Origin: Bacteroidales bacterium
GTDB taxonomy: Bacteria > Bacteroidota > Bacteroidia > Bacteroidales > Marinilabiliaceae
DNA length: 64,000 bases
NCBI GenBank assembly: GCA_024401365.1
Contig: JAKSLE010000001.1
Span: 62,001 to 126,000 of the forward strand
Direction: 5' to 3'
Positions 8,118-54,236 of the stretch are shown here, piece by piece. The translations under genes were made by a program, and so were the position numbers. The notes beneath the pieces were generated by a model. That model saw only the letters and a list, made by a program, of their open reading frames with translations. It had not been told where the DNA came from and ran no database searches. How positions within the stretch are numbered: position 1 is the stretch's first letter; every line of letters begins with the position of its first letter.

Positions 8118-8669
8118 ATGACTGAACACCGCAAATTGCGTATCGAGGAACTGGGACGTATATCTATCGCCGAAAATAAAGTGGCCCAGCACGAACACTT
8201 GACCGTCGTCTTGGATAACGTACGTAGCCTCAATAATATAGGCTCGGTTTTCCGTACCTCCGATGCAATGGATGTCGAACGTGTCATACTTTGCGGCATA
8301 TCGTCTACCCCCCCTAGCCCCGAAATGCACAAGACCGCCCTCGGAGCCGAGGATTCTGTACCTTGGAAATACTACGAGGATACCCTCTCCGCTATCCACG
8401 ACCTGAAAGCCGAGGGCTATACCATCATAAGCATAGAACAGACCCAAAATAGTACCCCTCTCCAAAATTTCCCCTTCTCCAAGAATGGCAAGTATGCCAT
8501 CATAATGGGTAACGAGGTCCACGGAGTCCAACAGTCCGTAGTCGACGCTTCCGATCTATGTATCGAACTTCCTCAGTTCGGCTCTAAACATTCTATGAAC
8601 GTAAGCGTAACTACCGGAATGGTCCTCTGGGAAGCCACAACCAAAATCAAAGGACTGCGAACAAAATAA
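8118..8669 (+). CDS. TrmH/SpoU-family RNA methyltransferase
   Basis: This is a compact 183-residue SPOUT methyltransferase without an N-terminal recognition domain, so it resembles tRNA Gm18 (TrmH) type enzymes. Motif 1 is VLDNVRSLNNIGSVFRTSDA, motif 2 IIMGNEVHGV, motif 3 ELPQFGSKHSMNVSVTTGMVLWE. The ATG at 8118 is chosen because the -7 element and terminator lie between it and the longer start at 8070. It is monocistronic and converges on tamL; the two stops are separated by about 95 bases that hold a copy of the dispersed repeat. Confidence 0.92.
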   Translation: MTEHRKLRIEELGRISIAENKVAQHEHLTVVLDNVRSLNNIGSVFRTSDAMDVERVILCGISSTPPSPEMHKTALGAEDSVPWKYYEDTLSAIHDLKAEGYTIISIEQTQNSTPLQNFPFSKNGKYAIIMGNEVHGVQQSVVDASDLCIELPQFGSKHSMNVSVTTGMVLWEATTKIKGLRTK

Positions 8670-8715
8670 AAAAACTGCGAGCAACCTTATATCAGCCTTA
8701 TATCAGCCCATACCC
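8668..8715 (+). repeat. Dispersed repeat, copy 1
   Basis: An A run precedes CTGCGAGCAAC, then CCTTATATCAG occurs twice in tandem. The core TGCGAGCAAC is at 8676-8685. It starts at the stop codon of the methyltransferase gene, whose last codons (CTGCGAACAA) look like a partial second copy. Confidence 0.8.
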
Positions 8716-8763
8716 ACAAAGGCCCCACAAACACTGCATCATGCCACCTCTCAGTGACCTTCA

Positions 8764-10971
8764 TCAGAATGGATAGCCAATAGCAAAATTCAAATTAATA
8801 TCCTTGGCACTAAACGACTTGTCAGCTATTATCCACCCATTCTTGCTGTCAAGTGTCGTCGGGTCATGTAGCTTCACCGCTCCATCTAACCTGACTATAA
8901 AGAAATCAAAATTCAGTCGTATGCCTAAACCTCCTCCAAGTGCCAATTCTTTATAAAACTCTTTGCTGATCTTGGCATCGTGGTCATTCGTCGATTTGTC
9001 TAGCGACCATATATTGCCAGCATCCACAAATACTGCACCCTCTAATGCTGAAATAATGTGGAATCGATACTCTATATTGGCCTCAAGTCGCATATCTCCC
9101 ATCTGGTTGTGATACCTCACATCTTTATCTGCCTTGGCAGTACCTGGACCTAATCCCCTGATAGGCCAGGCACGAATACTGTTCGCTCCTCCTACAAAGT
9201 AACTCTTCTCAAATGGTAGCATCTTGGAGTTCCCATACGGAACACCTATACCCGCAAAAAACCTGTATACCCAGGCATTCATCCATAAGTCCGTAGCCTG
9301 ACACCTGAGCTCAAAGTCTGTCTTTATATACTGCGCATATCGTATTCCCCATAAGGTATTGTACGATCCGTCTTCATTCTTTACCTCGGTCATCTCGTTT
9401 TTTAAAGCACTCAGTACATTGCCAGCGGTCTCAAGTCCTGCCCTCACATACCATGTGGTACCTAGCTTCTTCGTCAACTGCTGGTTGAATAAAAACGAAT
9501 AGTTGGCCGAAAATATAAAGTGGTCTTGATATGAGTACTGTAAATAGGATTTTGATATGTAATTCTTGAAGTTGTCACTAATGGCTGGAATCTTCACTAC
9601 ATTAAACTCCACAGGCGTCACCGTGTGCAACACATATTGCGACCCATGGAACGTATACCTCATATAGGCTGTAACAAGCGACTTCGTGAAGTCTGGTCGC
9701 CTCTGATAGTCATAGGATAGATTGAAGACCGTATGCGGATTCCTCCTCTTGTGAAATGTCTCGGTCACATAGGGGAAAAAGAGTTTTGGAAACGATAAGT
9801 CTGCCGATGCCCCAAATTCCATAGTCATAAATCGCTCTTTGCCATCTCGGGCAAACTGGTTTTGCAACGCAAACCTTACCCTGGTATTCAGCGTCTCTGC
9901 TCCACTGAATAGATTCAAGTGCCTGTACGTAAGCGATAACGCCCCTCCTAGGTTGCCCGAGGAGTTCGTCCCTTCTACGTCTACCGAATAGTCTTGCTGC
10001 TTTATTGTGTTAATGTTGACTTTCGCATATAGCTTGCCGTAATCGTCTGCCCCCGTCGTGTCTACCTTCTCCGTAAACCTGGTGGATACAGTATTGATAA
10101 TGGCCAACGACCGAAGACGCGAATTCGTCAACTCTACATCACTGAGCTTATACATCTCACCGGATTTGACAAAACAGTTGTTCTTCAATAACGAGGGACG
10201 AAAAATACTGCCTTCGTCAACCGACTTGCCGTTTATCGTATATTCTACCGTGTCTATATAGTACCGCTTGTGGTGTAGCCCCTCTAATGGCGCTAATACC
10301 AACATACTGTCATCTACCACCAAACGCTGCCTAGTACTGTCTGCTATATAGTATATGTAGTCTTTGTTGAATTTGTAATACCCATTGTTGTTTAGGTCCC
10401 TCGTTACCCTCTCTCGCTCTTGATCTTGTACATTCGAGTCAAAGGGATCTCCTCTCTTTAGTAGAGTGTACACCGTGTCGGCTTCTACTAACGCCCTTAT
10501 GGAGTCATCTTCAACATTCAACGCTATGTTGCCTATCGTATACAGCGGACCGGCATTTATTATATAGTATACTTCACAGGTCTTCTCTCCCGTAATCTTC
10601 ACTGAGTCTACTACCGATGCCCTGAAGTATCCTTTGCTCTTCAAAAATAGCGCTATCTGTTCTTTGCTTTTTTTCTGCAACTGCTCATCATATATCACTG
10701 GCTCACTGCCAATGCGCCTCAACCAGTTGTTCCACCCGTTATCTTTCTTTGGATTGGATAGATTGTATAACCCAAGGTTCAACCTCCATAAACCAAGTAC
10801 CCTCACATTCGGACGCTGCCTCACATAGTCCATAACCTCATCGTGACTGAACCGACCCTTGTCGCCTTGTATGCGAACCTTGTCCAACAGATACTCCCCT
10901 TCTTGTACATACTTCGTCGAACGACACGAACATAATAAAGCTAGTACCAGAATCCCTAGCACTAGCCTCAT
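8764..10971 (-). CDS. tamL: TamL-type outer-membrane assembly lipoprotein (TamA/Omp85 family)
   Basis: This Omp85-family protein is predicted to help insert or assemble outer-membrane components. From the ATG at 10971 it has a short signal peptide and lipobox (LALLCSC), so it is a lipoprotein, as in the TamL variant of Bacteroidetes. POTRA-like domains fill about residues 20-300 (QRPNVRVLGLWRLNLGLYNL and EPVIYDEQLQKKSKEQ are typical) and the C-terminal barrel ends in FAIGYPF. The start at 11022 is rejected because the -7 element at 11010-11017 lies inside that extension. Its usual partner TamB is not beside it. Confidence 0.88.
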   Translation of the reverse strand: MRLVLGILVLALLCSCRSTKYVQEGEYLLDKVRIQGDKGRFSHDEVMDYVRQRPNVRVLGLWRLNLGLYNLSNPKKDNGWNNWLRRIGSEPVIYDEQLQKKSKEQIALFLKSKGYFRASVVDSVKITGEKTCEVYYIINAGPLYTIGNIALNVEDDSIRALVEADTVYTLLKRGDPFDSNVQDQERERVTRDLNNNGYYKFNKDYIYYIADSTRQRLVVDDSMLVLAPLEGLHHKRYYIDTVEYTINGKSVDEGSIFRPSLLKNNCFVKSGEMYKLSDVELTNSRLRSLAIINTVSTRFTEKVDTTGADDYGKLYAKVNINTIKQQDYSVDVEGTNSSGNLGGALSLTYRHLNLFSGAETLNTRVRFALQNQFARDGKERFMTMEFGASADLSFPKLFFPYVTETFHKRRNPHTVFNLSYDYQRRPDFTKSLVTAYMRYTFHGSQYVLHTVTPVEFNVVKIPAISDNFKNYISKSYLQYSYQDHFIFSANYSFLFNQQLTKKLGTTWYVRAGLETAGNVLSALKNEMTEVKNEDGSYNTLWGIRYAQYIKTDFELRCQATDLWMNAWVYRFFAGIGVPYGNSKMLPFEKSYFVGGANSIRAWPIRGLGPGTAKADKDVRYHNQMGDMRLEANIEYRFHIISALEGAVFVDAGNIWSLDKSTNDHDAKISKEFYKELALGGGLGIRLNFDFFIVRLDGAVKLHDPTTLDSKNGWIIADKSFSAKDINLNFAIGYPF

Positions 10972-11009
10972 GTATCTAAACTCTATTTTCTTTCGCTCGT
11001 TCACAATTA

Positions 11010-11017
11010 CAAAATTA
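11010..11017 (-). promoter_or_regulatory. -7 element for tamL
   Basis: The minus strand reads TAATTTTG, 39 bases before the ATG at 10971. It fixes the shorter tamL start and lies 22 bases from the first upstream site of the divergent groES promoter. Confidence 0.5.
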
Positions 11018-11038
11018 GACAAAAAAGCTCAATACTAT

Positions 11039-11126
11039 CTGCCAATACGACAAAAAGCTTGCCTCTATCTGCCCGTTTGTCAGCTATATCTTCTTTACGT
11101 TCTGCCAAAATGTCACTTTTATGACA
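11039..11126 (+). promoter_or_regulatory. Three repeated upstream activator-like sites before groES
   Basis: Three 14-base copies are visible: CTGCCAATACGACA at 11039-11052, CTGCCCGTTTGTCA at 11069-11082 and CTGCCAAAATGTCA at 11102-11115, spaced 30 and 33 bases apart, about three helical turns each. The last overlaps an inverted repeat TGTCA-N6-TGACA at 11111-11126. The arrangement resembles binding sites for a sigma-54 enhancer-binding protein, but could also be a repressor array. Confidence 0.6.
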
Positions 11127-11136
11127 AAAAACAACT

Positions 11137-11153
11137 TTGGCACAGCTGTTGAT
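11137..11153 (+). promoter_or_regulatory. Putative sigma-54 (-24/-12) promoter of groES
   Basis: TTGGCACAGCTGTTGAT matches TGGCAC-N5-TTGC with the correct ten-base gap between GG (11139-11140) and G (11151); only the final C of TTGC is A. Transcription would start near 11163, about 60 bases before groES. No TAnnTTTG element was seen in 11154-11222. Confidence 0.5.
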
Positions 11154-11222
11154 ATACTCAAAGCGTCGCTGATATTAAACAACGACCGTTTAATAGAATA
11201 ACAATTAAAAAAACATACAACA

Positions 11223-11501
11223 ATGGCACAAGTTAAAGGCAAAATCCTCGCTGGTAAAGTGCTCGTTAAGCCTCAGGAGGCAGAGACTAAAACCGTAGGC
11301 GGTATCATCATCCCTGATTCAGCTAAAGAGAAACCTCTCCGCGGCGAAGTAGTCCTCGTCGGAGCAGCTAAAAAGGACGAGACAGTTGAGGTAAAAGCTG
11401 GCGACGTAGTCCTCTATGGTAAGTACGCTGGTACTGAACTCGAAATCGATGGCGAGAAGTATCTCCTCATCAACCAGTCTGATGTTCTCTACATCATCTA
11501 A
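11223..11501 (+). CDS. groES: Co-chaperonin GroES
   Basis: This 92-residue protein caps the GroEL folding chamber in the cytoplasm. The mobile loop [18 protein letters not shown] (about residues 19-36), the GEVVLVG strand and the C-terminal [11 protein letters not shown] are typical, and the length is normal. It is followed after 26 bases by groEL on the same strand. Its upstream region carries a possible sigma-54 promoter with repeated activator sites and no CIRCE inverted repeat. Confidence 0.98.
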
Positions 11502-11515
11502 TCATCAACTTGTAA

Positions 11516-13162
<1,647 letters not shown>

Positions 13163-13186
13163 TCATCCCTTATATAGCATAAAATC

Positions 13187-13218
13187 AAAGGCAAGCTTCT
13201 TGGCTTGCCTTTTTATTT
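13187..13218 (+). terminator. Terminator of groESL
   Basis: AAAGGCAAGC at 13187-13196 pairs perfectly with GCTTGCCTTT at 13203-13212 around a six-base loop and runs into a T-rich tract. Confidence 0.9.
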
Positions 13219-13223
13219 TCCCC

Positions 13224-14147
13224 CTACTTGCTGAGCTCTATATGATAGGCGGCGCCTACTTGTATCTGATGGAACGGATAGTCACGCAACCCTTTCTGAT
13301 ACCCAGCTATCACCTCCCATTGACTTAGCCGGTAGCGCAACTGTGTCTTCATCTCTATGGGTTGGTCTCTCGCTAGCTCCGCAGGTATGCAGTCCCTGTT
13401 CTCCCATCCGCTATACCCACTTAACGAGTATGATAAATATAGCTTCTTGTACCTCCAAGATAATAGCATGCCATACATCATGGCATCATTCTGCCTGCCA
13501 GCACTGGTCTGCCAACACAAAAATCCTCCCGATAAAGCAGCCCTCAACTGGTGCTCTCCTATCTGCTTGCTCTTGCCGGCAGTGACATCAAAGAAATATC
13601 CCGCCGCATCATAAAAACGCGCTATGTCATACCCATTGCCCGACGCAGTCTTGAGTACCGCCCTAAGAGTAATGTCTGGCTTGTACTCTCCTTCTAACAT
13701 CACGTGTATATTGGTGGATACATATACATCTCCTACCATGACACCCTTCCGCGCCTTGGTATTGGTCAGGACTAATGTGTCCAACCTGCAGACTTCTAGT
13801 CGCTTGTCGGAATTCTTATACCACTCTACCATATGCCCCCAAAGCGAAATATTTACCCTGGGCGTATATAGCGGCATAGTGTATTGGGGACGAAAACTTA
13901 ATGTGTAATCTCCTTGATACCCTATAAAACCATTGCTGGTAAGCTCTATACTGATGTCTTCTTGCGTACTCCCATCTATCATCTCTGGCACAGGAAAAGC
14001 ACAGGGCCCAAAATAATATGGCGATATCTGAGATGTCAATTTCCACGAATAGGGTACCAACGGCGTCTGCGAATGGATCATGCTGGTAAATAACATTAGC
14101 AGAATGACAACAATACCGTACTTTCTTTTATCTCTTATAAGCAACAT
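13224..14147 (-). CDS. Predicted outer-membrane beta-barrel protein, function unknown
   Basis: This 307-residue protein has an N-terminal hydrophobic signal segment (about residues 10-26, ending in SMIHSQT) and alternating beta-strand-like stretches ending in VGAAYHIELSK. Repeated aromatic patterns (LSWRYKKLYLSYSLSGYSGW, WEVIAGYQKGLRDY) suit a barrel. I do not recognise the family. It converges on groEL and is divergent from a large envelope protein gene, with overlapping promoters between them, so joint regulation with that gene is possible. Confidence 0.65.
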   Translation of the reverse strand: MLLIRDKRKYGIVVILLMLFTSMIHSQTPLVPYSWKLTSQISPYYFGPCAFPVPEMIDGSTQEDISIELTSNGFIGYQGDYTLSFRPQYTMPLYTPRVNISLWGHMVEWYKNSDKRLEVCRLDTLVLTNTKARKGVMVGDVYVSTNIHVMLEGEYKPDITLRAVLKTASGNGYDIARFYDAAGYFFDVTAGKSKQIGEHQLRAALSGGFLCWQTSAGRQNDAMMYGMLLSWRYKKLYLSYSLSGYSGWENRDCIPAELARDQPIEMKTQLRYRLSQWEVIAGYQKGLRDYPFHQIQVGAAYHIELSK

Positions 14148-14161
14148 CTGCTATAATTTCT

Positions 14162-14169
14162 TAATTTTG
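14162..14169 (+). promoter_or_regulatory. -7 element for the 800-residue envelope gene
   Basis: TAATTTTG matches TAnnTTTG, 54 bases before the ATG at 14224. A small inverted repeat CACTC-N6-GAGTG follows at about 14197-14212. Confidence 0.5.
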
Positions 14170-14174
14170 AGGCC

Positions 14175-14182
14175 CAAAGATA
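14175..14182 (-). promoter_or_regulatory. -7 element for the divergent barrel gene
   Basis: The minus strand reads TATCTTTG, 27 bases before the ATG at 14147. It lies only five bases from the opposing -7 element at 14162-14169, so the two promoters must overlap. Confidence 0.5.
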
Positions 14183-14223
14183 GTCAATTTTGAACACACT
14201 CTTTCTAGAGTGCCTGTATAACT

Positions 14224-16626: not shown

Positions 16627-16639
16627 CAGCATATTTTTA

Positions 16640-17917
16640 GTGTATCGGTCTGTATCTTACATATTGCGTTCGGCTGTAGTCTTAATACTGACTATATGTA
16701 GCATGAGTAATTCTTATGCTCAGGATTCGTTGTACGTGACCCCAAAGAAACATTGGCTGAATAGAGTGGGCGATAATAAGGTCTTCCTCTCTGTCATCTC
16801 TGGCGCCCCTTTGCTGGGTATTGCAGCATTGAACGAAAAAACTAACGATAAATTCCGCGCTCTGCGTAATCAGTACACCCCCAATTTTTCTACTCATATC
16901 GACGATTATCTCTTGTATACCCCAATGCTGGCTTTGGCTGGCATGAAAATGGCTGGCGTAAAGAGCCGTAGTAGCTGGGGAAGATTGATCGTCTCGGATG
17001 CCTTGGCTTTGTCGCTCGAACTTTCTAGCGTCAATATGGTAAAGAACAATTATACTTACTGGAGACCGGATCTGGGGGGACCTAATTCTTTCCCTTCTGG
17101 CCATACCGCCAACGCTTTCATGATGGCTTCAATGTTCGCTAAGGAGTATGGCTATATATCTCCTTGGCTGACCGCGGGTGCTTATTCTATTGCTACTTCT
17201 ACTGGCGTCATGCGAATGGCCAACAACCGTCACTGGATTCGCGATGTCATCATGGGCGCAGGCATAGGTATCCTCTCTACCGAAATAGGCTACCTGATTG
17301 CTGATGCTATATTCAAAGAGAAGGGTCTTAATATACCTGATAATTATCTCTTCAACGACCTTTCTAGGCCTAGCTTCTTTTCTATCTTCTTCGGTAAGAA
17401 TATACCTCTTAGTGGATACCCCATAAATCAGGATACCCCCTTCGGCTTCTCTTCGGGTACTGCTATGGGCATCGAGGGTGCTTACTTCTTTAATAGGTAT
17501 ATAGGCGCAGGTGCCCGATTCTCTGTCTCTTCTACTAGAGCCGTAGGCACAGACCCCAACAACGTGGAGGCGGATCTGCTCTACTACTTCATGTCTTTCT
17601 CTGATTGTATGTACTACTCCTTGTCTTTCTCTCCTGGCTTGTATGTCTCAAAGAGCTTGGGGAATAGATGGCTGTTGGGTGGTAAATTGTTGGGCGATTA
17701 CGTCGCTTACCCTACTATGAAAAACAACGGCACTGTCGTGCCTCACGACCATGGCTTCGGCTTCGGAACGGGTGCTTCTATTACCTTTAGAGCTCGCCCT
17801 AATTATGGCCTCAAAATGTTCGCCGACTTGAACGTACGCCCTGCTCATAGCTTGTCTGAGACGGGTCTCTGGACTTCTATTACGTGTGGTTTCGCTTTCT
17901 CTTTTTTGTGCCCTTAA
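16640..17917 (+). CDS. PAP2 phosphatase fused to a C-terminal outer-membrane-type domain
   Basis: This 425-residue protein starts with GTG. After a signal peptide (NSYAQD, residue 28) comes a PAP2 domain with all three motifs: K135-N6-R142-P143, PSGH at 152-155 and R192-N5-H198-N3-D202, so the phosphatase should be active. Such enzymes dephosphorylate undecaprenyl pyrophosphate, phosphatidylglycerol phosphate or lipid A. Residues about 250-425 form a glycine- and aromatic-rich beta domain (GIEGAYFFNRYIGAGARFS, GFGTGASITFRARP) resembling a small outer-membrane barrel. It is the second gene of the operon with the receptor-like protein. Confidence 0.82.
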   Translation: MYRSVSYILRSAVVLILTICSMSNSYAQDSLYVTPKKHWLNRVGDNKVFLSVISGAPLLGIAALNEKTNDKFRALRNQYTPNFSTHIDDYLLYTPMLALAGMKMAGVKSRSSWGRLIVSDALALSLELSSVNMVKNNYTYWRPDLGGPNSFPSGHTANAFMMASMFAKEYGYISPWLTAGAYSIATSTGVMRMANNRHWIRDVIMGAGIGILSTEIGYLIADAIFKEKGLNIPDNYLFNDLSRPSFFSIFFGKNIPLSGYPINQDTPFGFSSGTAMGIEGAYFFNRYIGAGARFSVSSTRAVGTDPNNVEADLLYYFMSFSDCMYYSLSFSPGLYVSKSLGNRWLLGGKLLGDYVAYPTMKNNGTVVPHDHGFGFGTGASITFRARPNYGLKMFADLNVRPAHSLSETGLWTSITCGFAFSFLCP

Positions 17918-17980
17918 TAAAAAAACTGCGAGCAACAACTATGCTCCAACTACTCTCTATATACATAGCAACTGACTTTC
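17917..17980 (+). repeat. Dispersed repeat, copy 2
   Basis: The A run and CTGCGAGCAAC begin at the stop codon of the PAP2 gene (core 17927-17936), continuing through AACTA, CTCTCTATA and GCAACTGACTT. The far end matches that of copy 7, which shows the unit is about 65-70 bases long. Confidence 0.8.
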
Positions 17981-17984
17981 TTAT

Positions 17985-18030
17985 TAAAAAACTGCGAGCA
18001 ACCTTATATCTCTCTCTTATCACAGACTAC
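17985..18030 (+). repeat. Dispersed repeat, copy 3
   Basis: This is the second of two tandem copies in this gap (core 17993-18002): TTAAAAAACTGCGAGCAAC followed by CTTATATC and CTCTCTTATC. It lies just beyond the stop of the helix-hairpin-helix gene, and the reverse strand ends in a T run. Confidence 0.8.
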
Positions 18031-18070
18031 CCAGATAGGCTTCTCTAAGGATGCCTGATCTCCCCTGAAA

Positions 18071-19120: not shown

Positions 19121-19148
19121 CTGTTTAGTAGCTTTCTTTTTTTATCGG

Positions 19149-20474: not shown

Positions 20475-20506
20475 TTTACTTTCGCTTTTGCTGTTATTTG
20501 TACGCT

Positions 20507-20514
20507 CAAAATTA
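20507..20514 (-). promoter_or_regulatory. -7 element for the sodium symporter
   Basis: The minus strand reads TAATTTTG, 33 bases upstream of the ATG at 20474. Confidence 0.5.
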
Positions 20515-20638: not shown

Positions 20639-20661
20639 CTTTACTATTTCTGCACCGTTTG

Positions 20662-27295: not shown

Positions 27296-27387
27296 TCAGT
27301 TTTCTAATATTAAGAAGATTTAACAGTCCACTGAAAATAATACTGAGTATGACCATTTTAGCCTATTAGGAATCAGGTGGTGAGCAC

Positions 27388-27440
27388 GGGGAAGATACTC
27401 GCTGATATAAGAGAGCCTAGTTGTTGCTCGCAGTTTTTTT
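27388..27440 (-). repeat. Dispersed repeat, copy 4, inverted
   Basis: The minus strand reads A7-CTGCGAGCAACAACTA then GGCTCTCTTATATCAGCG (core 27423-27432). It sits in the gap between the tetR start and the rnr stop, so it is not placed as a terminator of either gene. Confidence 0.8.
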
Positions 27441-27464
27441 AATTATGCGCATTAAACAGGGCTA

Positions 27465-35809: not shown

Positions 35810-36604
35810 TCAGACATGTCTAGTATTCCAAGTGCCTATATACGCCAAACCTTTCAACACTAAGTTTTCGAGTGCAAAAGTGCAATTTTTTGTTGAACTA
35901 TGAAAATATTTACTATCTCCTCCTGTCAAAACTAACAAAATATCTTTCCCGGTCTTCTCTTCCAGTTCTCTCCTATATCCCTCTATCTCAAGCCTTACAC
36001 CTTGCATAACACCTTCTAGAATCGCCTGCTGAGTATTTGTTCCTAGAGCTATTTTTTTACATTTATATGCACTTCCCAGCTCTACTAATGGCAGTTTTGA
36101 GGTGTAATCGTGCAACGCCGAAAACCTCAATCTTATACCTGGAGATATATTCCCACCCTTGAATGTATTGCTGTCCGCATCATAATAATCAAGTGTAATG
36201 GCCGTCCCCATATCTACAACTAGCATATGCCGCTTCCCATACATGGCTATAGCCCCAGCTATGGCAGCTACCCTGTCTGGCCCTAACGTCTCTTTGGTCT
36301 TGTACGATATCTTGAAGGGCAACTTGTCTGTGCCTCTCAGTATATAGGTATCAAATCCCTCAAATACAGGCAAAATATCATCAAGCCTCTTGGATACCGA
36401 GGAGATCATTATTTTAATTTTTTGCGAGCAACCGCTATTCTCTCTTATATCTCCCTTATATCTCACATAGGGTTCTAATAACGCCGAGAGCTCCCCACAT
36501 TCTTCTCCCAAGGGGATCACAACTTGCTCTCCTAGTATTCCGCCTTCAGACCAACTGACCTTGGTGGAACTGTTACCTATGTCTATCAGTAATACTTTGC
36601 TCAT
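35810..36604 (-). CDS. coaX: Type III pantothenate kinase
   Basis: The enzyme phosphorylates pantothenate, the first step of CoA synthesis. The start is the ATG at 36602-36604, giving 264 residues. Motifs: DIGNSSTK near 8-15 (ATP loop), GPDR near 108-111, DMGTAITLD near 130-138, and TGGDSKYF near 233. A copy of the dispersed repeat is read antisense through residues about 48-65 (YKGDIRENSGCSQKIKI), so the protein is a little longer than usual in a region outside the catalytic motifs. Divergent from queC with a shared 108-base promoter region. Confidence 0.93.
   Translation of the reverse strand: MSKVLLIDIGNSSTKVSWSEGGILGEQVVIPLGEECGELSALLEPYVRYKGDIRENSGCSQKIKIMISSVSKRLDDILPVFEGFDTYILRGTDKLPFKISYKTKETLGPDRVAAIAGAIAMYGKRHMLVVDMGTAITLDYYDADSNTFKGGNISPGIRLRFSALHDYTSKLPLVELGSAYKCKKIALGTNTQQAILEGVMQGVRLEIEGYRRELEEKTGKDILLVLTGGDSKYFHSSTKNCTFALENLVLKGLAYIGTWNTRHV
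36417..36470 (+). repeat. Dispersed repeat, copy 5, inside coaX
   Basis: The sequence TTGCGAGCAACCGC (core 36423-36432) is followed by CTCTCTTATATCTCCCTTATATCTC. It keeps the coaX reading frame and encodes part of the protein on the opposite strand. The usual A run is here a T run. Confidence 0.75.
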
Positions 36605-36613
36605 AACGTGTAC

Positions 36614-36621
36614 CAAAGGTA
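36614..36621 (-). promoter_or_regulatory. -7 element directly before coaX
   Basis: The minus strand reads TACCTTTG, only nine bases before the coaX ATG, so a very short or absent 5' leader is expected. Confidence 0.5.
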
Positions 36622-36643
36622 ATGCTTTATTACAGAATAATAC

Positions 36644-36651
36644 TACCTTTG
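36644..36651 (+). promoter_or_regulatory. -7 element for the queCEF operon
   Basis: TACCTTTG at about 60 bases before queC (GTG at 36712). No preQ1 riboswitch could be recognised in the 50-60 base leader. Confidence 0.55.
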
Positions 36652-36711
36652 CATCCACATTTTGGTATAACCCGACAGTTCGCAAAATCCTGTCGTAAAA
36701 CAAAACTAACC

Positions 36712-37389
36712 GTGAATTCAAAAGCAGTAGTCCTTCTTTCTGGTGGGTTGGACTCCACCACAGCATTGTATCTCGCTAAAAGCGAGGGTCACGAAGTTCA
36801 TGCTATTTCGTTCGATTATGACCAGCGTCATAGCCGCGAATTGGAATCTGCTCGCCGCGTAGCAGAGAAAGTGGGGGTGGCGTCTCATCAGGTGGTTTCT
36901 CTCAACTTGGCTCAGTGGGGTGGCTCTTCTTTAACCGATAAGAATATGACTATCGAGGATGGCGACGTAAATCGTACGGATATTCCTCTTACCTACGTCC
37001 CCGCCCGCAACATGGTATTCCTTTCTGTAGCAGCTTCTATGGCTGAGGCTCTCGGCGCACAACATATATATATAGGTGTAAGCCAAGTCGATTACTCTGG
37101 ATACGTCGATTGCCGAAAGGTCTTCATCGATGCTATGGAGGAGGCCATAAATCAGGGTACCGTAATGGGCGCCGAACAGAATAAACGTATCAAAATCCAC
37201 GCGCCTTTCATGTTCATGACTAAGGCTGAGGAAATCCAATTGGGCGTAAAGCTTGGCGTCGATTTCTCTCTTACTTGGAGTTGCTACCGCGGCGGATTGC
37301 GCCCTTGCGGCACTTGCGATAGTTGTCTTCTCCGAGCTAAGGCTTTCGCAGAGGCTGGCGTGGAGGATACTAGCCTCAATGCTCAATAG
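36712..37389 (+). CDS. queC: 7-cyano-7-deazaguanine synthase
   Basis: QueC turns 7-carboxy-7-deazaguanine into preQ0 with ATP and ammonia, in queuosine synthesis. The PP-loop LLSGGLDSTTAL is at about 8-19, and the zinc site is CYRGGLRPCGTCDSC near the C-terminus (four cysteines). I start at GTG 36712, giving 225 residues, a normal length; a longer frame from 36622 would include the promoter. First of queC-queE-queF. Confidence 0.96.
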   Translation: MNSKAVVLLSGGLDSTTALYLAKSEGHEVHAISFDYDQRHSRELESARRVAEKVGVASHQVVSLNLAQWGGSSLTDKNMTIEDGDVNRTDIPLTYVPARNMVFLSVAASMAEALGAQHIYIGVSQVDYSGYVDCRKVFIDAMEEAINQGTVMGAEQNKRIKIHAPFMFMTKAEEIQLGVKLGVDFSLTWSCYRGGLRPCGTCDSCLLRAKAFAEAGVEDTSLNAQ

Positions 37390-38242: not shown

Positions 38243-39166
38243 ATGACTAATAATAGCCAACCCATAGAGGCTACCTTGCTTGGTAAGCGCACCGAGTATC
38301 CTCAGCATTATTCTCCTGAAATCTTGGTGGCCGTACCACGTCAACTTAATCGCAATAGTTTAAAAATTTGCGAGCAACAACTACCCTTTAGCGGAGCAGA
38401 CGCTTGGCACGCTTATGAAATAAGCTGGCTCAACCATAGGGGAATACCTGTCGTAGGCGTACTTAAATTGGTGTACGACGCTTCTTCTCCTTGCATAGTG
38501 GAGAGTAAGAGCCTTAAACTCTACCTCAACTCTTTTAATATGCATCGCACCCAAGTGTGTGGCGATAATGGCGTGACCGAAATACAGGAGACCGTCTGCC
38601 GAGATTTATCCCAGACAGTCGGCGCCCCAGTATCCGTACATATACATTCTCACAACGCATACATTAACGCTCCTTCTCCTTTCCAGGGATATACCGTATT
38701 GGAGGAGCTGCCCGAGTGCCAGAATATCACAACGGATACTTATACCGAAGACCCTGATGTCTTGACGGCTTCAAATACCCTCTCTCCCGCCTCACCATCA
38801 ACGGATAGCGTACTTAAATATGCTTCCCACTTGCTGAGGTCTAATTGCAAAATTACACACCAACCCGATTGGGGTTCTGTCTTTATCCATTTCCGCCCAA
38901 ACGAGGATGGCAAAGCACCTACGCCCGCCTCTCTCCTCAAATATATCGTCTCCCTACGCGGCGAGAATCACTTCCATGAGGAGATATGCGAAATGATTTA
39001 CGTGCGACTACAACGTATATTCAACCCGTCTGAGTTGTGCGTATCTTGCATCTACACCCGCCGAGGCGGCATCGATATCTGCCCTTCTCGAGCTAGCAAT
39101 ATCTCATTATTGCCCTCGCAATTACTACAAAGTGAGGTTATTATACAAAAATTAGCACGACAATAA
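38243..39166 (+). CDS. queF: NADPH-dependent 7-cyano-7-deazaguanine reductase, long form
   Basis: QueF reduces the nitrile of preQ0 to preQ1 with NADPH. At 307 residues this is the long, two-domain (E. coli-like) form: VESKSLKLYLNSFN at 86-99 binds substrate and NADPH, and catalytic C202 lies in SNCKITHQPDWGS with D209. RRGGIDICPSR near the end is also conserved. A copy of the dispersed repeat covers codons 39-47 (LKICEQQLP) without changing the alignment length relative to E. coli QueF. Last gene of the operon; queD and folE are absent from the window. Confidence 0.95.
   Translation: MTNNSQPIEATLLGKRTEYPQHYSPEILVAVPRQLNRNSLKICEQQLPFSGADAWHAYEISWLNHRGIPVVGVLKLVYDASSPCIVESKSLKLYLNSFNMHRTQVCGDNGVTEIQETVCRDLSQTVGAPVSVHIHSHNAYINAPSPFQGYTVLEELPECQNITTDTYTEDPDVLTASNTLSPASPSTDSVLKYASHLLRSNCKITHQPDWGSVFIHFRPNEDGKAPTPASLLKYIVSLRGENHFHEEICEMIYVRLQRIFNPSELCVSCIYTRRGGIDICPSRASNISLLPSQLLQSEVIIQKLARQ
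38360..38392 (+). repeat. Dispersed repeat, copy 6, inside queF
   Basis: TTAAAAATTTGCGAGCAAC then AACTACCC (core 38369-38378). It matches copy 2 at 20 of 22 bases over the A run through AACTA, but the surrounding protein alignment has no gap. Confidence 0.6.
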
Positions 39167-39176
39167 CGACTATTTA

Positions 39177-42414: not shown

Positions 42415-42427
42415 TGTCTACTCTGCT

Positions 42428-43447: not shown

Positions 43448-43477
43448 ATTCTTTTCTGTGTTTTTATTGGGGACTGA

Positions 43478-45274: not shown

Positions 45275-45289
45275 CTTTTACGCTATGAT

Positions 45290-48200: not shown

Positions 48201-48361
48201 GGAGAACTTGTCTCGTCTACTACCTTGCCAGTGAATACCGTAGTCTGGGCAAATGCGAAGCTGCCAAAACAGAGCACGCTCACGAGCAATGTCCAGAGAC
48301 GCATAGGCAAGTGCTTATTCTGTTTATTATTTTGCTTGTTCATTTTTTTATCTTTTTTCAA
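45290..48361 (-). CDS. xusC: SusC-family TonB-dependent transporter (XusC-like)
   Basis: This 1023-residue outer-membrane importer has a signal peptide, a carboxypeptidase-D-like domain (TVFTGKVVDETSSPMAGVNV, about 40-115), a plug and a barrel. The usual VVVGYG TonB box after the first domain is missing; that place reads EVAFRKLDSQDIL, and the SusC signature is AVLLYGSHAAKGAILITTKRG. Energy coupling may therefore use another box. The second SusC of the operon, partner of the downstream SusD. Confidence 0.93.
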   Translation of the reverse strand: MKKDKKMNKQNNKQNKHLPMRLWTLLVSVLCFGSFAFAQTTVFTGKVVDETSSPMAGVNVTAKGTTAATITNFDGEYTLSVEAPAVLSFAFVGYDTETVAVLATNTVNNVTMHPTAPEMVEVAFRKLDSQDILGGIETLNVAEVIENNYFLGGLDNMQAYFSGFNGSSVWGFDSRLVVIDGVAGRDANNIKPDEIESITILKGAQAVLLYGSHAAKGAILITTKRGQQSDICIDARANTGWNVFKAYPEYTSAAEYMILYNQARKNDGDAETYSAEDIYLTNEGKNPTRYPDLNLYSSDYIKKAYNRWDVTAEIYGGSDRATYYSNVSYYRVGTPFKFGNAKNNYIDRLSARGNVDMFLGDIVTAFANATASFYNNKQANGSSDFWEMASQTRPNKIQPFIPIDMLDTSVPAVANYLATARRVNGKYILGGVTNQQETNTIADMYVGGESTFTSRVMQFDTGVKIDLEGLTKGLSLTAVYGLDYSTSYSVSMSDEYATFEPSWSKYNGKMLITGLTKGTKNDKHSGAKNIGGSTSNMIMSANVHFDYNRSFDDHNVNAIVLVNGDQRTVSGEYHSESEANFGAQVNYNFAHKYYANVGISMIHTARLAEENRNHLSKSIELGWDAAKESFLDGGIFNKLLISAALSQIKTDLNVEGFYPYASIIQKEGWWGYGDEAGGESNSVKQGENPDLDPQSRDEISVNLKAELLDRALKIDASFYTNKYKGGIIRATSKLPSYMSLGYPNTSFVYNMNYDEDKRTGFDASVRYNTKIGSVDLGVGVFGSYYTTEATKRDETTVEYDYQKRQGRDLDGNWGYECLGFFQSEEDIANSPSQTALSTNIKPGDLKYKDQNGDGVIDNKDQVFLSRGGWYGAPTTIGTNITAKYKGFTLLVIGTGDFGGTAYKSGSYWRPSGEQRYSAEQRNAWTPATASTATLPRLTATANGNNNQTSTFWEYKTNRFNIAKVQLTYDFASSLFEGTPIKGAQVYVSGFDLLTISKERKWMETTVNYMPQSRFYNLGVKVSF

Positions 48362-48381
48362 TTACCAGTTAAGACTTCCGG

Positions 48382-50382
48382 TTACCAACCTGGGTTCTGA
48401 GTAAAGCCCTGATATAGGTTTACATCAGCCTCCTTGAATGGGAGGAAATAGTGCTTAGAATCGTACGAACGCTCAAGTATTGTCTTATATCCGTAACCTG
48501 CAACCTCTGCCTCACGTGGGTCGTTCTGTGTGTAGAACTCATCAGATTCCTTACGAGAGAACTCTGCAGATTGCTTAATGGTATAAGGATACTCTGTAAG
48601 AAGCAACCAACGCTGCAAGTCGTTCCAACGATGACCCTCAAACGAAAGCTCGCAAGCACGCTCACGACGAACCTCATCCATGAACAAGTTCTTGTCTGCT
48701 GTGTACTTAGCATTTACATGCGCAGCACCAACACGATCACGGATAGTATTGATAGCATCTTCAGCTGTCTTAGAGTAATTTGAACTCTTGTAGCTAGCAC
48801 CTCCGGCAGCTGCACCAGCCTCAGCATACAACAAGTACACTTCTGCTAGACGCATATATGAAAGGTAACATGACAATGATGAACCCCAGTTGTATACACC
48901 ATCAATTACATTGGCAGTGTGTGGAGCAAGCTTCTGTGTGTAATAACCTGTGCGCGAAGCCTGGTCATTATCAATACGAAGGTTACCACCTGTGTACATC
49001 TGGCAGTACTCATATGGCTTCTTGTCCGAATCAGCACCTACCTTCTCCTTGATGTACTTGAAACCATCAAATACAATATCATGGTAGAAACGTGGGTCAC
49101 GGTTCAAGAATGGGTGTGTTGGATCATAGCCCGACTCAGGGTCTGTGATAGGAAGACCGTTAGCCATACCGTATGCATAATCAACATAGTTGGCTGTTGG
49201 CTGGTGAATCAAAGCATCGTGCTCTACAATACCTGCTGTCTTTGTACCCCAAAGTTTAGCAAAGTTCCAGTTCGAACCGTTAACCTCTGTAGCAGGACCA
49301 CGCATGATAGCCTCTGTGCCACCAGGCTGACGCCAGTTGAAACCTTCTGTATAGAAGAGCGATGAGTAACAGTCGATAGGTGTCTTGCCATTCTTATCTG
49401 AATGGTTGTAAATACTTGCACCTTCCTCATCATATACACCAACAAATTTTGCAAGAGCATACTTTGTAGATGTTGTCTCAACAAGATTGAGGAGCTCACC
49501 TAATGCCTCAGCCGACTTCTTCGCATACTCTTGGTTGTATGCGTATGTGTTGCCGTTCTTCGAAGCACCTACCTGCGCACCCTTCTCATGAAGTGGAGAT
49601 GCTGCATAAAGGAGTACCTTGCCAAGATAACCAAGAGCTGCTGCCTTAGTAATACGGTTTGAGTTCTTACCTTTATTAACCTTACCTACTGTTGTCTCAT
49701 CCCAATCCATTGGAAGAAGATCTGCTGCCTTACGGAAATCTGCAGCCGCTAAGTCTGCACACTCACGATACGACATACGTGGAAGATTAAACTGCGAAGC
49801 ATCAATAGGCTCTGTCATATATGGAAGACCACCAAAGAATGCCATCATCTCTTCATACCACCAACCACGGAAGAAGTAAAGCTGACCTGCAATAAGGTTC
49901 TTCTCTTCACGTGTCGCTGTAATCTTGTCAATGTTCTGAAGACCTAAGTTTGCCTTACGGATACAATACCATGCATGGTCTACCAATGAATGAGCAAACT
50001 TATCTGTACTTGTTGGATTTGGATTTCGGTTACCACCACCAACTACAGATGCACTAGCGCAAAGCCAAGATTGTACCTGATTGTACCATGCCTTATAGTT
50101 GCCAAGGTCAAACTGACGAGTTAGGTGCCCATCACCCAAACCAGTATTGAGGATCTCATCCTCACCCCAGTTGAATGTTGTTGTCCAATAGCAACTCTCC
50201 TTATTTGGAATACAGTTGTAGATTTCTTCTACGTATCCCTGAAAGTTACGGAAGTTTAGGAACGCTGTCTCTGGCTTTACATCTGTATCTGGCTCCTTGT
50301 CAAGATAATCCTCACACGAAGCAAGACCAAGCGTAGAAGCAAGACCAAGCGCACAATATGCTATATATTTAAATTTCTTCAT
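48382..50382 (-). CDS. xusB: SusD-family glycan-binding lipoprotein (XusB-like)
   Basis: This 666-residue lipoprotein (lipobox LASCEDY at about 20-26) is the larger SusD of the operon. It shows the SusD C-terminal signature FMDEVRRERACELSFEGHRWNDLQRW (about 575-600) and ends in LYQGFTQNPGW. It starts 14 bases after the first SusC and forms the complex with it. Confidence 0.94.
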   Translation of the reverse strand: MKKFKYIAYCALGLASTLGLASCEDYLDKEPDTDVKPETAFLNFRNFQGYVEEIYNCIPNKESCYWTTTFNWGEDEILNTGLGDGHLTRQFDLGNYKAWYNQVQSWLCASASVVGGGNRNPNPTSTDKFAHSLVDHAWYCIRKANLGLQNIDKITATREEKNLIAGQLYFFRGWWYEEMMAFFGGLPYMTEPIDASQFNLPRMSYRECADLAAADFRKAADLLPMDWDETTVGKVNKGKNSNRITKAAALGYLGKVLLYAASPLHEKGAQVGASKNGNTYAYNQEYAKKSAEALGELLNLVETTSTKYALAKFVGVYDEEGASIYNHSDKNGKTPIDCYSSLFYTEGFNWRQPGGTEAIMRGPATEVNGSNWNFAKLWGTKTAGIVEHDALIHQPTANYVDYAYGMANGLPITDPESGYDPTHPFLNRDPRFYHDIVFDGFKYIKEKVGADSDKKPYEYCQMYTGGNLRIDNDQASRTGYYTQKLAPHTANVIDGVYNWGSSLSCYLSYMRLAEVYLLYAEAGAAAGGASYKSSNYSKTAEDAINTIRDRVGAAHVNAKYTADKNLFMDEVRRERACELSFEGHRWNDLQRWLLLTEYPYTIKQSAEFSRKESDEFYTQNDPREAEVAGYGYKTILERSYDSKHYFLPFKEADVNLYQGFTQNPGW

Positions 50383-50396
50383 TTTCTAACGGTTTA

Positions 50397-53300
50397 TTAG
50401 AGAGAGAACTTAAGACCAAAGTTGATACGCTTAACTGTTGGGTATGCACCCTGACCAGCGCCACCTGCAAAGTTCGACTCACGGTCATCAGGCATGCGTG
50501 ACCATACCCAGAGGTTGTTACCGCTGACGAAGAGCTTAAGGCTAGAGAAGTGGATCTTCTTCATGAAATCCTTGCTCTTATCGAATGTATAACCAAGCTC
50601 AACATTCTTCAAACGAATGTATGACGCATCCTCAAGGAACTGTGTACAATTGTAGTACGATGGTGTCGAATTGTAACGTGGTGTCAGGTATTCCGCATTT
50701 GCATGCTCTGCCGACCACCATGAACCCATATCAAATACAGTGTTCAACTTATTACCAAATGACTCCATAGTTACATCACGTGTTACGTTTGTTACACCAT
50801 AGAACTGAAGGAAGAAGTTCCATCCCTTCCAATCTACACCTACAGTCGCATTGTATGTATTCTCTGGATTGCTGGTATATCCGTAAGGAGCTGAATCGTT
50901 GTCATCAATCTGACCATTACCGTTAAAGTCCATTACATGGTAGTCTCCAAGAAGCTTCTGGCTGTCGTTCGAAGAATACTTTGTAGAACCATACATCTCA
51001 TCGTATGAGTTGATGAAACCACAGTCAATATATGAACGAGTCTGACCTGAAGCATAACCTACCTGCTTGCGATATGCAGGATAGAGACTTGGCTCTGTAA
51101 CCTTGTCCATTACATTTTCTGCATGAGTCATGTTGAAGTTACCCCAAACTCGCATACCGTTCAAAAGGTTCTTGCTGACGCGGAGCTCAATCTCATAACC
51201 CTTTGTTGTCATCTCACCATAGTTGATAGATGCAGCATTCTGACCGTAGTAGCTAGGTGTAGCTGGTGTCATCACCATGTCCTTACGCTTGTCCTTAAAG
51301 AACTCTACGTTACCAGCCAAAAGACCGTCAAGGAATGCATAGTCAAGACCAACATTCATCTTTGTTACTGTCTCCCACTGAAGATCTGGGTTACCTACTG
51401 TAGACTCACGATACCACTCGTATGTAGAACCTGCATTTGGATCTGTATCAGCCAAACCGTTTGTAGCACCACCAAATGCCCATTCCGACATGTATGCAAA
51501 ACGGTTACCCTTAGAGTCATCACCAATCTGACCAATTGATCCACGAAGCTTCAACATATCAACAATCTTGTTGTCCTTAAGGTTCTGCATGAACGACTCC
51601 TCTGAGATTGTCCAACCAAGAGCTCCCGAACTAAAGAATACGAAACGCTTGTCAGAGCTATACTTCTCTGAACCGTTGTATGCACCGTTGTACTCAGCAA
51701 AGTACTTGCCCATAAAGTCGTATGTAGCACGGAATACCCAGTTCTCACGCAATGATGGAATCATTGAACCTTGCGCAAACTCGTCACGCTGGAATACACC
51801 CATAGCACCAACATTGTGCATGTCAGCAAACTTATGGTTGTAGTTAACCTGCAACTGATAGTTGAGACGACGTCTTGTCATCCAGTCTTGTACCGAACCA
51901 TTGCTCAAGTCCCAAGCAGGAAGACCTTCTTGTGTGTCAAACTTGTGATATGCATGATAAGGTGTCTTCAACGACTTCTCACCTGTATCAGGATCAATCC
52001 AGTTGATGATAGGATCACTCTTATACATATCACTTACACCACGACCAGCCTCAAGGAAGCTGTTATCCCAAGATACTGTACCACGGAAGTTCAAACCTTC
52101 TACAAGGAAATCAAGCTTCTGCTCAAGTGTAAAGTCTGTTGTAATTGTTGTAGTTGTCTTCTGCTGTGTACCCGACAATGCCAAGTTCTGTGCAGAGTTT
52201 GTTACGTTTGTCGAACCTGGAAGATAACCCCACGATCCGTCTGAGTATGTTGGCAAGAAACAGTCTGGAGAAATGTTGTATGCACCAGCCCAACGCTGAG
52301 CCATCTGCCACTCATCACCATCATTGGCTGCTGGACACTTACGCATACCCATTGATCCTGCAATACCGATCTTCAACACTGTAGATGATGTCAAGTTGAA
52401 GTCAAGGTTCGAACGTGTACCGATACGGTTGTATGAATAACCCGACTCATATCCACGGTTGTTCTCATATACCTTAAACATATCACCTTCGTTTACATAG
52501 TCAAGTGATGCGAAGTAACGAACAAACGACGAACCACCTGCTACATTGACATTGGCATTGTACGACATCGCACGCTTCTTGAAAAGTGCATCTTGCCAAT
52601 CTACATTTGGATAACGCTCTCTGATCAAGTTGCCAAGCTCATCACGCTTGTCTCCCTGATTACGATAGTTCTCAATGAAGGACATTGGACGATATCTCGA
52701 CCAAGAGTCTGCAATATTCAACTCATGCTCAATAGCAACGTTACGTGCTACAAGCGCATCGTATGAATCAAGCTTGTTTGGCAACTTCGATACAGTCTTC
52801 ATGATAGCGTTGAACTGTACGTTAACTTGTGCCCTTCCTTCCTTACCACGACGAGTAGTAATAAGGATTACACCGTTAGCACCTTTCACACCGAATACTG
52901 CTGTTGCAGAAGCATCCTTCAATACCGAGAGACTCTCTACTGATGACATATCAACTGATGTCATCTCACGCTCTACTCCATCTACAAGCACAAGAGGCTG
53001 GTTCTGTGAACCACGAATGAAGATTTGTGGAGTCTCCTCACCTGGCATACCAGATGAAGATACTGTTACTACACCAGGAAGGTTACCTGTGAGGGCCTGT
53101 CCTACGTTTGTAATACCAGCAGCACGCTCAAGTACCTCACCAGTAGTCTGCGTGATGGCACCTACAATACTCTCTTTCTTCTGTTGTCCATAACCAACGA
53201 CTACAATCTCTTCAATGTCTTGCGAAGAGTCAACCATCGTTACGTTGTAGACATTTTTTCCAGCTGCTACCGTTACGTTTTGGTTGTCAAAACCAATAAA

Positions 53301-53555
53301 CGAATAAACAAGCTGCGAACCTGCTGGAACTGATAGCGTGTAGTTACCATCGAAATCTGTAACAGTACCTGTAGTAGTACCGCTAACAGCAACTGATACA
53401 CCAGGGAGTGGAGCTCCCGTCTCATCGACTACCGTTCCTTTGATGGTCACTTTATCCTGTGCCATTGCTACCGCAGCAACCCCAAAGGCTACTACAACAA
53501 ATGCAGCAAGTCGACGACAGATAGAGCTAAGCCATCCTTCATTTAGTCTTTGCAT
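50397..53555 (-). CDS. xusA: SusC-family TonB-dependent transporter (XusA-like)
   Basis: This 1052-residue outer-membrane importer of xylo-oligosaccharides has a long signal peptide (cleavage near AMAQD, residue 33), a carboxypeptidase-like domain (VTIKGTVVDETGAPLPGVSV), the TonB box EEIVVVGYG at about 115 and the SusC signature SATAVFGVKGANGVILITTRRG near 215. First gene of the operon with a long intergenic control region upstream. Gene order A-B-C-D-E-xyn10C equals that described in P. bryantii. Confidence 0.95.
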   Translation of the reverse strand: MQRLNEGWLSSICRRLAAFVVVAFGVAAVAMAQDKVTIKGTVVDETGAPLPGVSVAVSGTTTGTVTDFDGNYTLSVPAGSQLVYSFIGFDNQNVTVAAGKNVYNVTMVDSSQDIEEIVVVGYGQQKKESIVGAITQTTGEVLERAAGITNVGQALTGNLPGVVTVSSSGMPGEETPQIFIRGSQNQPLVLVDGVEREMTSVDMSSVESLSVLKDASATAVFGVKGANGVILITTRRGKEGRAQVNVQFNAIMKTVSKLPNKLDSYDALVARNVAIEHELNIADSWSRYRPMSFIENYRNQGDKRDELGNLIRERYPNVDWQDALFKKRAMSYNANVNVAGGSSFVRYFASLDYVNEGDMFKVYENNRGYESGYSYNRIGTRSNLDFNLTSSTVLKIGIAGSMGMRKCPAANDGDEWQMAQRWAGAYNISPDCFLPTYSDGSWGYLPGSTNVTNSAQNLALSGTQQKTTTTITTDFTLEQKLDFLVEGLNFRGTVSWDNSFLEAGRGVSDMYKSDPIINWIDPDTGEKSLKTPYHAYHKFDTQEGLPAWDLSNGSVQDWMTRRRLNYQLQVNYNHKFADMHNVGAMGVFQRDEFAQGSMIPSLRENWVFRATYDFMGKYFAEYNGAYNGSEKYSSDKRFVFFSSGALGWTISEESFMQNLKDNKIVDMLKLRGSIGQIGDDSKGNRFAYMSEWAFGGATNGLADTDPNAGSTYEWYRESTVGNPDLQWETVTKMNVGLDYAFLDGLLAGNVEFFKDKRKDMVMTPATPSYYGQNAASINYGEMTTKGYEIELRVSKNLLNGMRVWGNFNMTHAENVMDKVTEPSLYPAYRKQVGYASGQTRSYIDCGFINSYDEMYGSTKYSSNDSQKLLGDYHVMDFNGNGQIDDNDSAPYGYTSNPENTYNATVGVDWKGWNFFLQFYGVTNVTRDVTMESFGNKLNTVFDMGSWWSAEHANAEYLTPRYNSTPSYYNCTQFLEDASYIRLKNVELGYTFDKSKDFMKKIHFSSLKLFVSGNNLWVWSRMPDDRESNFAGGAGQGAYPTVKRINFGLKFSL

Positions 53556-54172
53556 AGTTTTTGTTTGATGATTTGCAGAGGTTTTAGTAAAAGATTTGTG
53601 TTCCTGACCTTCGAATACCTAAGTGAAACCCCTTTTACACTCAAGACCGTAGGCTTTTTTCTGTTTTTTTGTTTGTTCGTATCTACTACATATTCGCTTT
53701 AAATTTCCTTTTAGGGTGAAGACACGTTATTACGTGTGCAAATTTCGCAACTTTCTGCATAATGCACTTTCACGCTCGTTACCATTTGTTTTCTATTCGT
53801 TAACTAATGTGAATTTTCACCACCCATCAAACGCTTCTGGAACAGCCTTTCTCAAATGACTATAAACCAGCCCATTAAAAAAGCTAAATGTAACGAGTAA
53901 AAAATTATTTGTTACGCAATACAAAAAATATGCGCACAAAAGTTCACTATTTCACTCCTATATATCAATAGTTGCCACTATCATGATACACACAAACAAA
54001 TCTCCTTTCTTCTCTTGCCAACAATCTTCTAATATTTGTCTCTGGATCCTCTTGCTTTTTCGACTAAAAGCAACATACATTTTAGCACATAAATATGTCA
54101 AAATGTTAAAAACGTACAACCCCACTACGCCTTCTCACCCCACCTCACCCCCTCTTCTATTTCTTGCAATAA
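53556..54172. other. Control region upstream of the xylan operon, no gene
   Basis: This AT-rich 600-base stretch carries no convincing coding frame. Inverted repeats include ACACGTTATTACGTGT at 53722-53737 and GTGAATTTTCAC at 53809-53820. The string AATGTAACGAG occurs plus-sense at 53887-53897 and as AATGGTAACGAG minus-sense at 53775-53786. No TAnnTTTG element facing xusA was found, so the promoter is likely activator-dependent. Confidence 0.5.
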
Positions 54173-54236
54173 TAAAAAAACTGCGAGCAACCTTATATCT
54201 CGCTCTATACCGACTATATGCAGCAACCGACTTCCC
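54173..54236 (+). repeat. Dispersed repeat, copy 7
   Basis: A7-CTGCGAGCAAC then CTTATATCTCGCTCTATA and GCAACCGACTT (core 54182-54191). On the minus strand GCGAG and CTCGC can pair before seven T, a weak terminator shape. Confidence 0.8.

Follow-up and report, generated by a model that had tools for sequence, protein, structure and literature searches.

The dispersed repeat carried by a 64,000-nt stretch of Bacteroidales DNA (GenBank assembly GCA_024401365.1, contig JAKSLE010000001.1, forward-strand positions 62,001 to 126,000; hereafter the window) is, in our best description, a DNA signal of one Bacteroidales lineage in which a head is joined to 11-bp modules and which is oriented by GC skew and regularly spaced; each head consists of an A- or T-tract and an exact core. 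We put at about even odds that this element is an oriented, chromosome-wide putative protein-assembly or DNA-wrapping site of that lineage. An earlier note, made from the letters of the window alone, had listed seven copies of the core TGCGAGCAAC and had offered two readings of them, namely a small mobile or palindromic element family and a protein-binding site; the observation is sound and bigger than that note stated, and of its two readings the binding site fares better.

All seven exact TGCGAGCAAC cores were found at the coordinates and on the strands claimed for them (8676, 17927, 17993, 36423, 38369, and 54182 on the plus strand and 27423 on the minus strand), compared to 0.14 expected in the window, and none of 100 shuffles reached seven. 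The genome-wide count that had been proposed as a check gave 60 + 60 copies of TGCGAGCAAC in the genome of the window (G000; a 3.05-Mb, 87% complete draft of 76 contigs) versus 2 + 3 copies of the reversed pattern, far above the chance number, and the dispersed family is thus genuine. Of the 120 cores, 100 were placed with their flanks fetched, 18 further ones were placed by other searches, and 2 were never located. A profile scan of the window, whose training sites included these window copies, returned seven matches of at least 8 bits, every one with the exact core, and none in the reversed control; it disclosed no partly decayed or intermediate heads. Six of the seven cores are members of the family and form five clusters. 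The seventh, at 38369, was rejected as a chance coding match: the orthologous coding sequences of the other three carrier genomes (G013, G008, and G010) had no core and aligned without insertion, G000 differed from them there by point changes, and the profile score of this core, 28.8, was below those of the other six (33.7 to 63.9). The range claimed for the family, 8668..54236, took in the cores but was too narrow, since an array of the same grammar without a head lay beyond it on the minus strand.

The element began with an 11-nt slot rich in A or T, which was followed by the core slot (YTGCGAGCAAC) and then by a string of 11-nt modules. In 99 core-aligned copies of G000, information extended from about -12 to beyond +50 with little outside, and the conserved positions advanced in 11-nt steps, fading gradually along the array. 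The parts noticed earlier could be placed within this layout: (i) the run of A and C noted before the core exists, but as a tract of A (of T at 36423) whose last letter is C or T; (ii) the trailing CTTATATC, CTCTCTTATATC, and AACTA are real and were reassigned to 11-nt modules; (iii) the distal GCAAC(T/C)GACTT common to the second and seventh copies corresponds in both to the fourth module, with the register unchanged (AACTGACTTTC for 17927 and AACCGACTTCC for 54182); and (iv) there is no fixed unit of 65 to 70 bp, the 11-nt register fading instead. Similarity between copies extended well past 12 to 15 bases, as a register grammar and not as plain identity.

The module grammar was one of base classes, in which positions 4 and 5 avoided C and positions 8, 9, and 10 were Y, W, and S, respectively. 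The full grammar was present in modules 1, 2, and 3 of 89, 88, and 78 of 97 copies in G000 (chance level in the window, 7.3%), of 29, 30, and 24 of 31 copies on contig C1 of G013, of 5, 4, and 5 of 6 copies in G008, and of 3, 5, and 2 of 5 copies in G010. All 14 close head pairs were on the same strand and were spaced by 44, 55, 66, 77, or 88 bp; a few spacings of the second core type (see below) in G013 and G008 were off by one base (89; 76). GC content over the first 55 nt of modules had its strongest period at 10.5 and the next at 10.75. Exact lag-11 repeats numbered 27 to 77 per 100 kb in carriers versus 12 in the non-carrier G003, lag 10 being equally high in the small G010 sample. Neighbouring modules were somewhat more alike than shuffled ones, and arrays may therefore grow partly by module duplication: the observed likeness was reached at positions 1 to 5 by 8 (modules 1-2) and 1 (modules 2-3) of 1000 shuffles, and at positions 6 to 11 by 2 and 430 of 1000, respectively. 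On the opposite strand of module 2, positions 8 to 10 mostly read CTG or CTA; CTG and CTA are initiation triplets of bacterial primases.

The head occurred in two dialects. The second core, YTRCGATGAAC with an A-tract, was found 15 times in G000, 137 times in G013, 42 times in G008, and 34 times in G010, and it was absent from the other 11 genomes of the genus; core variants ending in GCAAG or GCAAA were also present. A scan that required the A-tract and left the core free (G013 C1 plus the window) recovered only the two core types. A scan for modules alone gave 5 arrays in the window, 8 on 150 kb of G000 contig C12, and 19 on G013 C1 (reversed controls 0, 1, and 3, respectively; 0 in 278 kb of contig C20 of the non-carrier G003), of which 1, 6, and up to 7 (the last by eye) lacked a head; because the reversed control gave three on G013 C1, some of its up to seven headless arrays may be chance. 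The headless array of the window scored 20.0 in a module scan trained without the window, the reversed control giving none at threshold 16 and one at threshold 14. G000 C12 had few TGCGAGCAAC cores, and its gaps were occupied by variant heads and by arrays without a head. Since the grammar is the same with and without a head, it may be, more tentatively, that the modules form the general code and that the heads are starters which can replace one another.

Two further observations concern these arrays. Three headless arrays on G013 C1 (90431, 118476, and 171012) had in common the modules CTTAACACATC and CTTAATACAGA, together with a word resembling CTTTAGATAAC upstream; they may carry another head type or belong to a longer repeat. 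A separate dispersed repeat, composed of 11-nt units like GTGCGTATGAC with the shared flank GTTTGGAGGG, was readable in the same module grammar (places in Table 1).

Orientation of the element followed the GC skew. Mean flank skew was -0.098 at plus sites and +0.099 at minus sites (50 of each), and 73 of the 84 clusters with fetched flanks, the set used for the sign test, were concordant with it. Skew was negative across the first 56 kb of the window, where long open reading frames (ORFs) occupy both strands, so it is not simply gene strand; in the draft genome G000 it would mark the direction of replication. No constant orientation to genes existed, as the earlier note had said: intergenic clusters had the upstream gene on the same strand in 31 and on the opposite strand in 28 cases, and the downstream gene in 32 and 25 cases, respectively. 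With ORFs of at least 80 aa taken from a simple ORF caller, 59 of the 84 clusters lay between ORFs and 25 inside them (16 sense and 9 antisense), and some copies lay within 10 nt 3′ of a stop codon.

Spacing along the chromosome was regular. It was measured on 112 sites (97 of the 100 fetched, three without an A5/T5 tract being dropped, plus 15 others, three of uncertain tract being dropped), which fell into 98 clusters with 73 gaps; sites of the second core and arrays without a head were not counted. Neighbouring clusters were on the same strand in 56 of 73 cases. Compared to a null that placed clusters uniformly and ignored gene positions, gaps below 4 kb were rare (5 versus 14.9 expected) and gaps of 4 to 14 kb were common (48 of 73 versus 28.5 expected), neither figure being reached in 5000 simulations; the median gap was 11.0 kb, and some gaps spanned 30 to 60 kb. 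The adjacent-gap ratio was 0.545 versus 0.387 under a local null, a value reached in none of 3000 runs. Strand bias and spacing point to a chromosome-wide role.

The element was carried by G000, G008, G010, and G013, that is, by 4 of the 15 genomes searched in the genus and 4 of the 71 in the family. In a public collection of one genome per species, which may leave out the window's own genome, a longer pattern matched 15 stretches, all in the horse-faeces Bacteroidales metagenome-assembled genomes JAKSLD and JAKSLC. Literature searches with the core strings and other word sets gave no report of the element among the matches listed, most subscription papers lying outside their coverage. The best conserved place was in coaX (Pan_kinase), where all four carrier species had an antisense copy at one and the same point of the gene: each had a T-tract and a core (TGCGAGCAAC, TGCGATGAAC, TGCGAGCAAG, and TGCGAGCAAC), the flanks were 69 to 73% identical, and the modules were different sets in which the register was kept. 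The non-carrier G003 had short 7-nt tandem repeats, e.g., GAAAATT (C20 277554, C21 26867, and others).

The elements of the window are listed in Table 1, and comparison of four spots among the carriers showed that places were partly kept and partly turned over. Around element 1, every other carrier had a head at the junction or beside either gene. The head of element 2 at 17927 was present in G008 (C139) and absent at the spot in G013, where the edges were too indistinct to be read as a target-site duplication or an empty site; G010 was not comparable. The head of element 3, whose orientation was discordant with the local GC skew, was kept in G010 (C49), G013 had none, and in G008 a single head lay between the gene pair of the 17927 spot. 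At element 5, G008 had heads, G013 had none, and G010 had no head and, by eye, a headless array on the opposite strand. Gene order around heads 17927/17993 and 27423 was rearranged among the four species (window versus G008 C139, G010 C49, and G013 C1); a simple two-point inversion from head 17993 to head 27423 was weighed, but it was not established, and we do not claim it.

Table 1. Features read in the window, with the places of a separate repeat on other contigs
Feature	Position	Strand	Composition
Element 1	8664..8729	+	A-rich slot 8664-8674; core 8676-8685; modules from 8686: CTTATATCAGC, CTTATATCAGC, CCATACCCACA, AAGGCCCCACA
Element 2	17915..18035	+	cores 17927-17936 and 17993-18002; heads 66 bp (6 x 11) apart; four modules between, three after
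Element 3	27379..27444	-	A-rich slot; core 27423-27432; four modules down to 27379
Element 4	36411..36465	+	T-tract; core 36423-36432; three modules; antisense inside coaX (35810-36766, -)
Non-member	38369..38378	+	chance core match in coding sequence
Element 5	54170..54235	+	A-rich slot; core 54182-54191; modules CTTATATCTCG, CTCTATACCGA, CTATATGCAGC, AACCGACTTCC
Headless array	59896..59950	-	about five modules: ATATGAGCTCT, ATATACGCTCT, ATATAGACAGT, ATATAGGCAGA, CGCTAATCACA; no tract or core
GTGCGTATGAC-type repeat	G000 C12 ~210, 30181, 94604; G013 C1 213228; L158 ~12102		

The exact head, the class-limited variation of the modules, and the helical register argue for a DNA-level binding site that is under selection and read once per turn, as do its independence of gene strand and its retention inside a coding gene. 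A candidate protein or complex would first recognise the head (an A- or T-tract followed by either YTGCGAGCAAC or YTRCGATGAAC) and would from there extend over the 11-bp modules along a single helix face, sensing DNA shape and class of base and not exact letters; if the DNA were read by shape or through the minor groove, W and S classes instead of fixed letters would be expected. The result would be a polar nucleoprotein structure, wrapped or filamentous, typically every 8 to 12 kb and mostly in one direction relative to replication, and its role might be in chromosome organisation, segregation, topology, or fork-linked work. More tentatively, and with some doubt on our part, the lineage may have acquired replication-oriented polar nucleoprotein sites about every 10 kb, at which the head starts a wrapped or filamentous complex and which give directional chromosome segments.

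Several observations weigh against a protein-assembly or DNA-wrapping site. No head was found in 11 of the 15 congeners searched, and no equivalent motif of this form was found in 398 kb of the non-carrier G003 (k-mers; module scan of C20), so the function would not be universal in the genus. Positions of the element turned over between species, 11 of 84 clusters were discordant with the skew, and concordance was weaker for the arrays of the modules-only scan: 3 of 5 in the window, 6 of 8 on G000 C12 (a contig with little GC skew), and 15 of 19 on G013 C1. GC content per module position had minima at 2, 4-5, and 9, without a smooth AT/GC alternation. Lastly, no carrier-specific partner was found among the four families searched (Y1 transposase, ParB, FtsK gamma, and HU/IHF).

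As to these families, ParB_N was found in 14 of 15 genomes and HU/IHF in all 15 (4 to 5 matches in carriers versus 2 to 4 in others), and both were rejected as carrier-specific partners. FtsK gamma, present in 14 of 15 genomes, was likewise rejected, its recognition region in carriers resembling that of non-carriers: carriers had NIQR(L/V)F where most others had R or Q, but the non-carrier G011 had I/V at that place and the non-carrier G009 had the same following helix. An FtsK-gamma-like domain was also seen near the C-terminus of non-FtsK proteins of 335 aa (G000 C75), 352 aa (G013 C25), and 334 aa (G005 C3), those of G000 and G005 being closely related though G005 lacks the element. Genes beside 9 of the 11 known multi-head clusters of G000 looked ordinary by eye on translation, no family search having been run.

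An unlikely alternative to the binding site is a short mobile repeat, either a miniature inverted-repeat transposable element (MITE)-like one or one inserting as a single strand, in which preference for one replication strand would account for the orientation, target immunity for the regular spacing, and common descent for the shared positions. The dispersed and lineage-restricted distribution, the majority of clusters lying between ORFs, the observed strand bias, and arrays that seem partly grown by module duplication would all fit, and strand bias occurs in some single-strand transposons. Against it, flanks aligned no further than the register grammar, no intermediate decayed heads occurred in the window, and the head and register in coaX, the sole comparable in-gene copy, stayed fixed in one place across four species as the modules changed wholesale. 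Terminal inverted repeats, the mark of a MITE, were looked for in six window arrays and no shared inverted pair emerged; three of these six regions had no inverted pair and the other three had pairs of differing sequence, so the palindromic nature once suggested was not borne out. A repetitive extragenic palindromic (REP) element with its REP-associated tyrosine transposase (RAYT) was rejected, since no palindrome was shared and Y1_Tnp (RAYT-type) had one match in G000 and none in G013, G008, and G010 (G008 and G000 being 86 to 87% complete drafts). The small non-autonomous mobile element of the earlier note was accordingly not shown, though past mobility is conceivable, positions of the element having turned over between species. 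Phage origin was also rejected: there were 24 exact AAAAAYTGCGAGCAAC matches in IMG/VR contigs, and the sequences listed for them looked like chance coding matches, with no module array visible by eye.

It is improbable that the element is a DNA uptake signal, spread by natural transformation that favours head-bearing fragments. The uptake signal sequence (USS) of Pasteurellaceae has a like layout (PMC1626085): an exact core is flanked by segments about a helix turn apart, dialects differ by clade, and the spacing is more regular than random; two core dialects occur here as well. The same source reports no significant orientation bias for USS and the DNA uptake sequence (DUS), at about one copy per kb, and a second source gives the same average spacing (PMC7811141); in contrast, most clusters here follow the skew, and heads number at most one per 15 to 25 kb (120 in 3.05 Mb of G000; 83 + 137 in the 3.3 Mb of G013). 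A strong gyrase-type site, in which the modules form the wrapped arm, the head fixes the cleavage core, and topological domains are set, is given a similarly low probability. The Escherichia coli gyrase motif has arms of about 47 bp with GC phased at 10.75 bp (PMC6379681), close to the periods of the modules, but it is symmetrical and degenerate where the present array is one-sided with an exact 10-nt core; moreover, a gyrase site would not be expected to follow the replication strand, and the GC alternation within modules is not smooth. An RNA-level signal (Rho utilisation site or terminator) is very improbable: on the core strand C is abundant and G scarce, pyrimidines recur at 11-nt intervals (module position 8), and some copies closely follow stop codons, but terminators do not explain a family that has no gene-strand preference and lies in part inside ORFs, seven of eight stretches had no notable RNA fold (the eighth, z -2.3), and Rfam and tRNA searches of the window gave no match.

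To our knowledge, dispersed sequences that follow the direction of replication are few and short: FtsK orienting polar sequences (KOPS), SpoIIIE recognition sequences (SRS), and Chi. An exact head with a modular 11-bp tail, even spacing, and dialects in a few species would be a natural experiment in the gaining of a chromosome-wide signal. The 11 non-carrier genomes of the same genus are ready comparisons, by which the partner protein and effects on nucleoid structure, topology, and DNA uptake become testable.

The comparison was also applied to known systems. ParR/parC-type iterons are 11-bp direct repeats at single plasmid loci; compared to them, the present element occupies about 100 loci per genome, and its modules share base classes only. 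REP elements and bacterial interspersed mosaic elements (BIMEs) are dispersed, mostly intergenic short repeats; the likeness lies in the dispersed short repeats, and the difference in the lack of a shared palindrome here. Bacterial genomes in general are described as having a characteristic 11-bp periodic bias (PMC4132750), a diffuse signal unlike the discrete loci formed by the present arrays. The gyrase motif is alike in being helically phased and differs in that the modules here stand on one side of an exact core. KOPS are dispersed 8-bp GGGNAGGG sequences oriented along the replication arms (PMC2680272) and read by FtsK gamma; the present element is likewise dispersed, its orientation, which follows GC skew in a draft genome, would correspond to the replication arms, and it differs in its sequence and in being modular and about 55 bp long. 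None of USS, KOPS, and the gyrase motif can be claimed as the family of the element, which falls short of the full definition of KOPS or of an uptake sequence. It is set apart from USS by a strong skew-related bias, by heads that are 10 to 25 times scarcer, and by its repeated 11-bp modules, which stand in place of two AT-rich segments. In anatomy, USS is the most alike, with an exact short core, clade dialects (YTGCGAGCAAC and YTRCGATGAAC in the present case), and a somewhat regular spacing, and by analogy the element might work in the way that KOPS or uptake sequences do.

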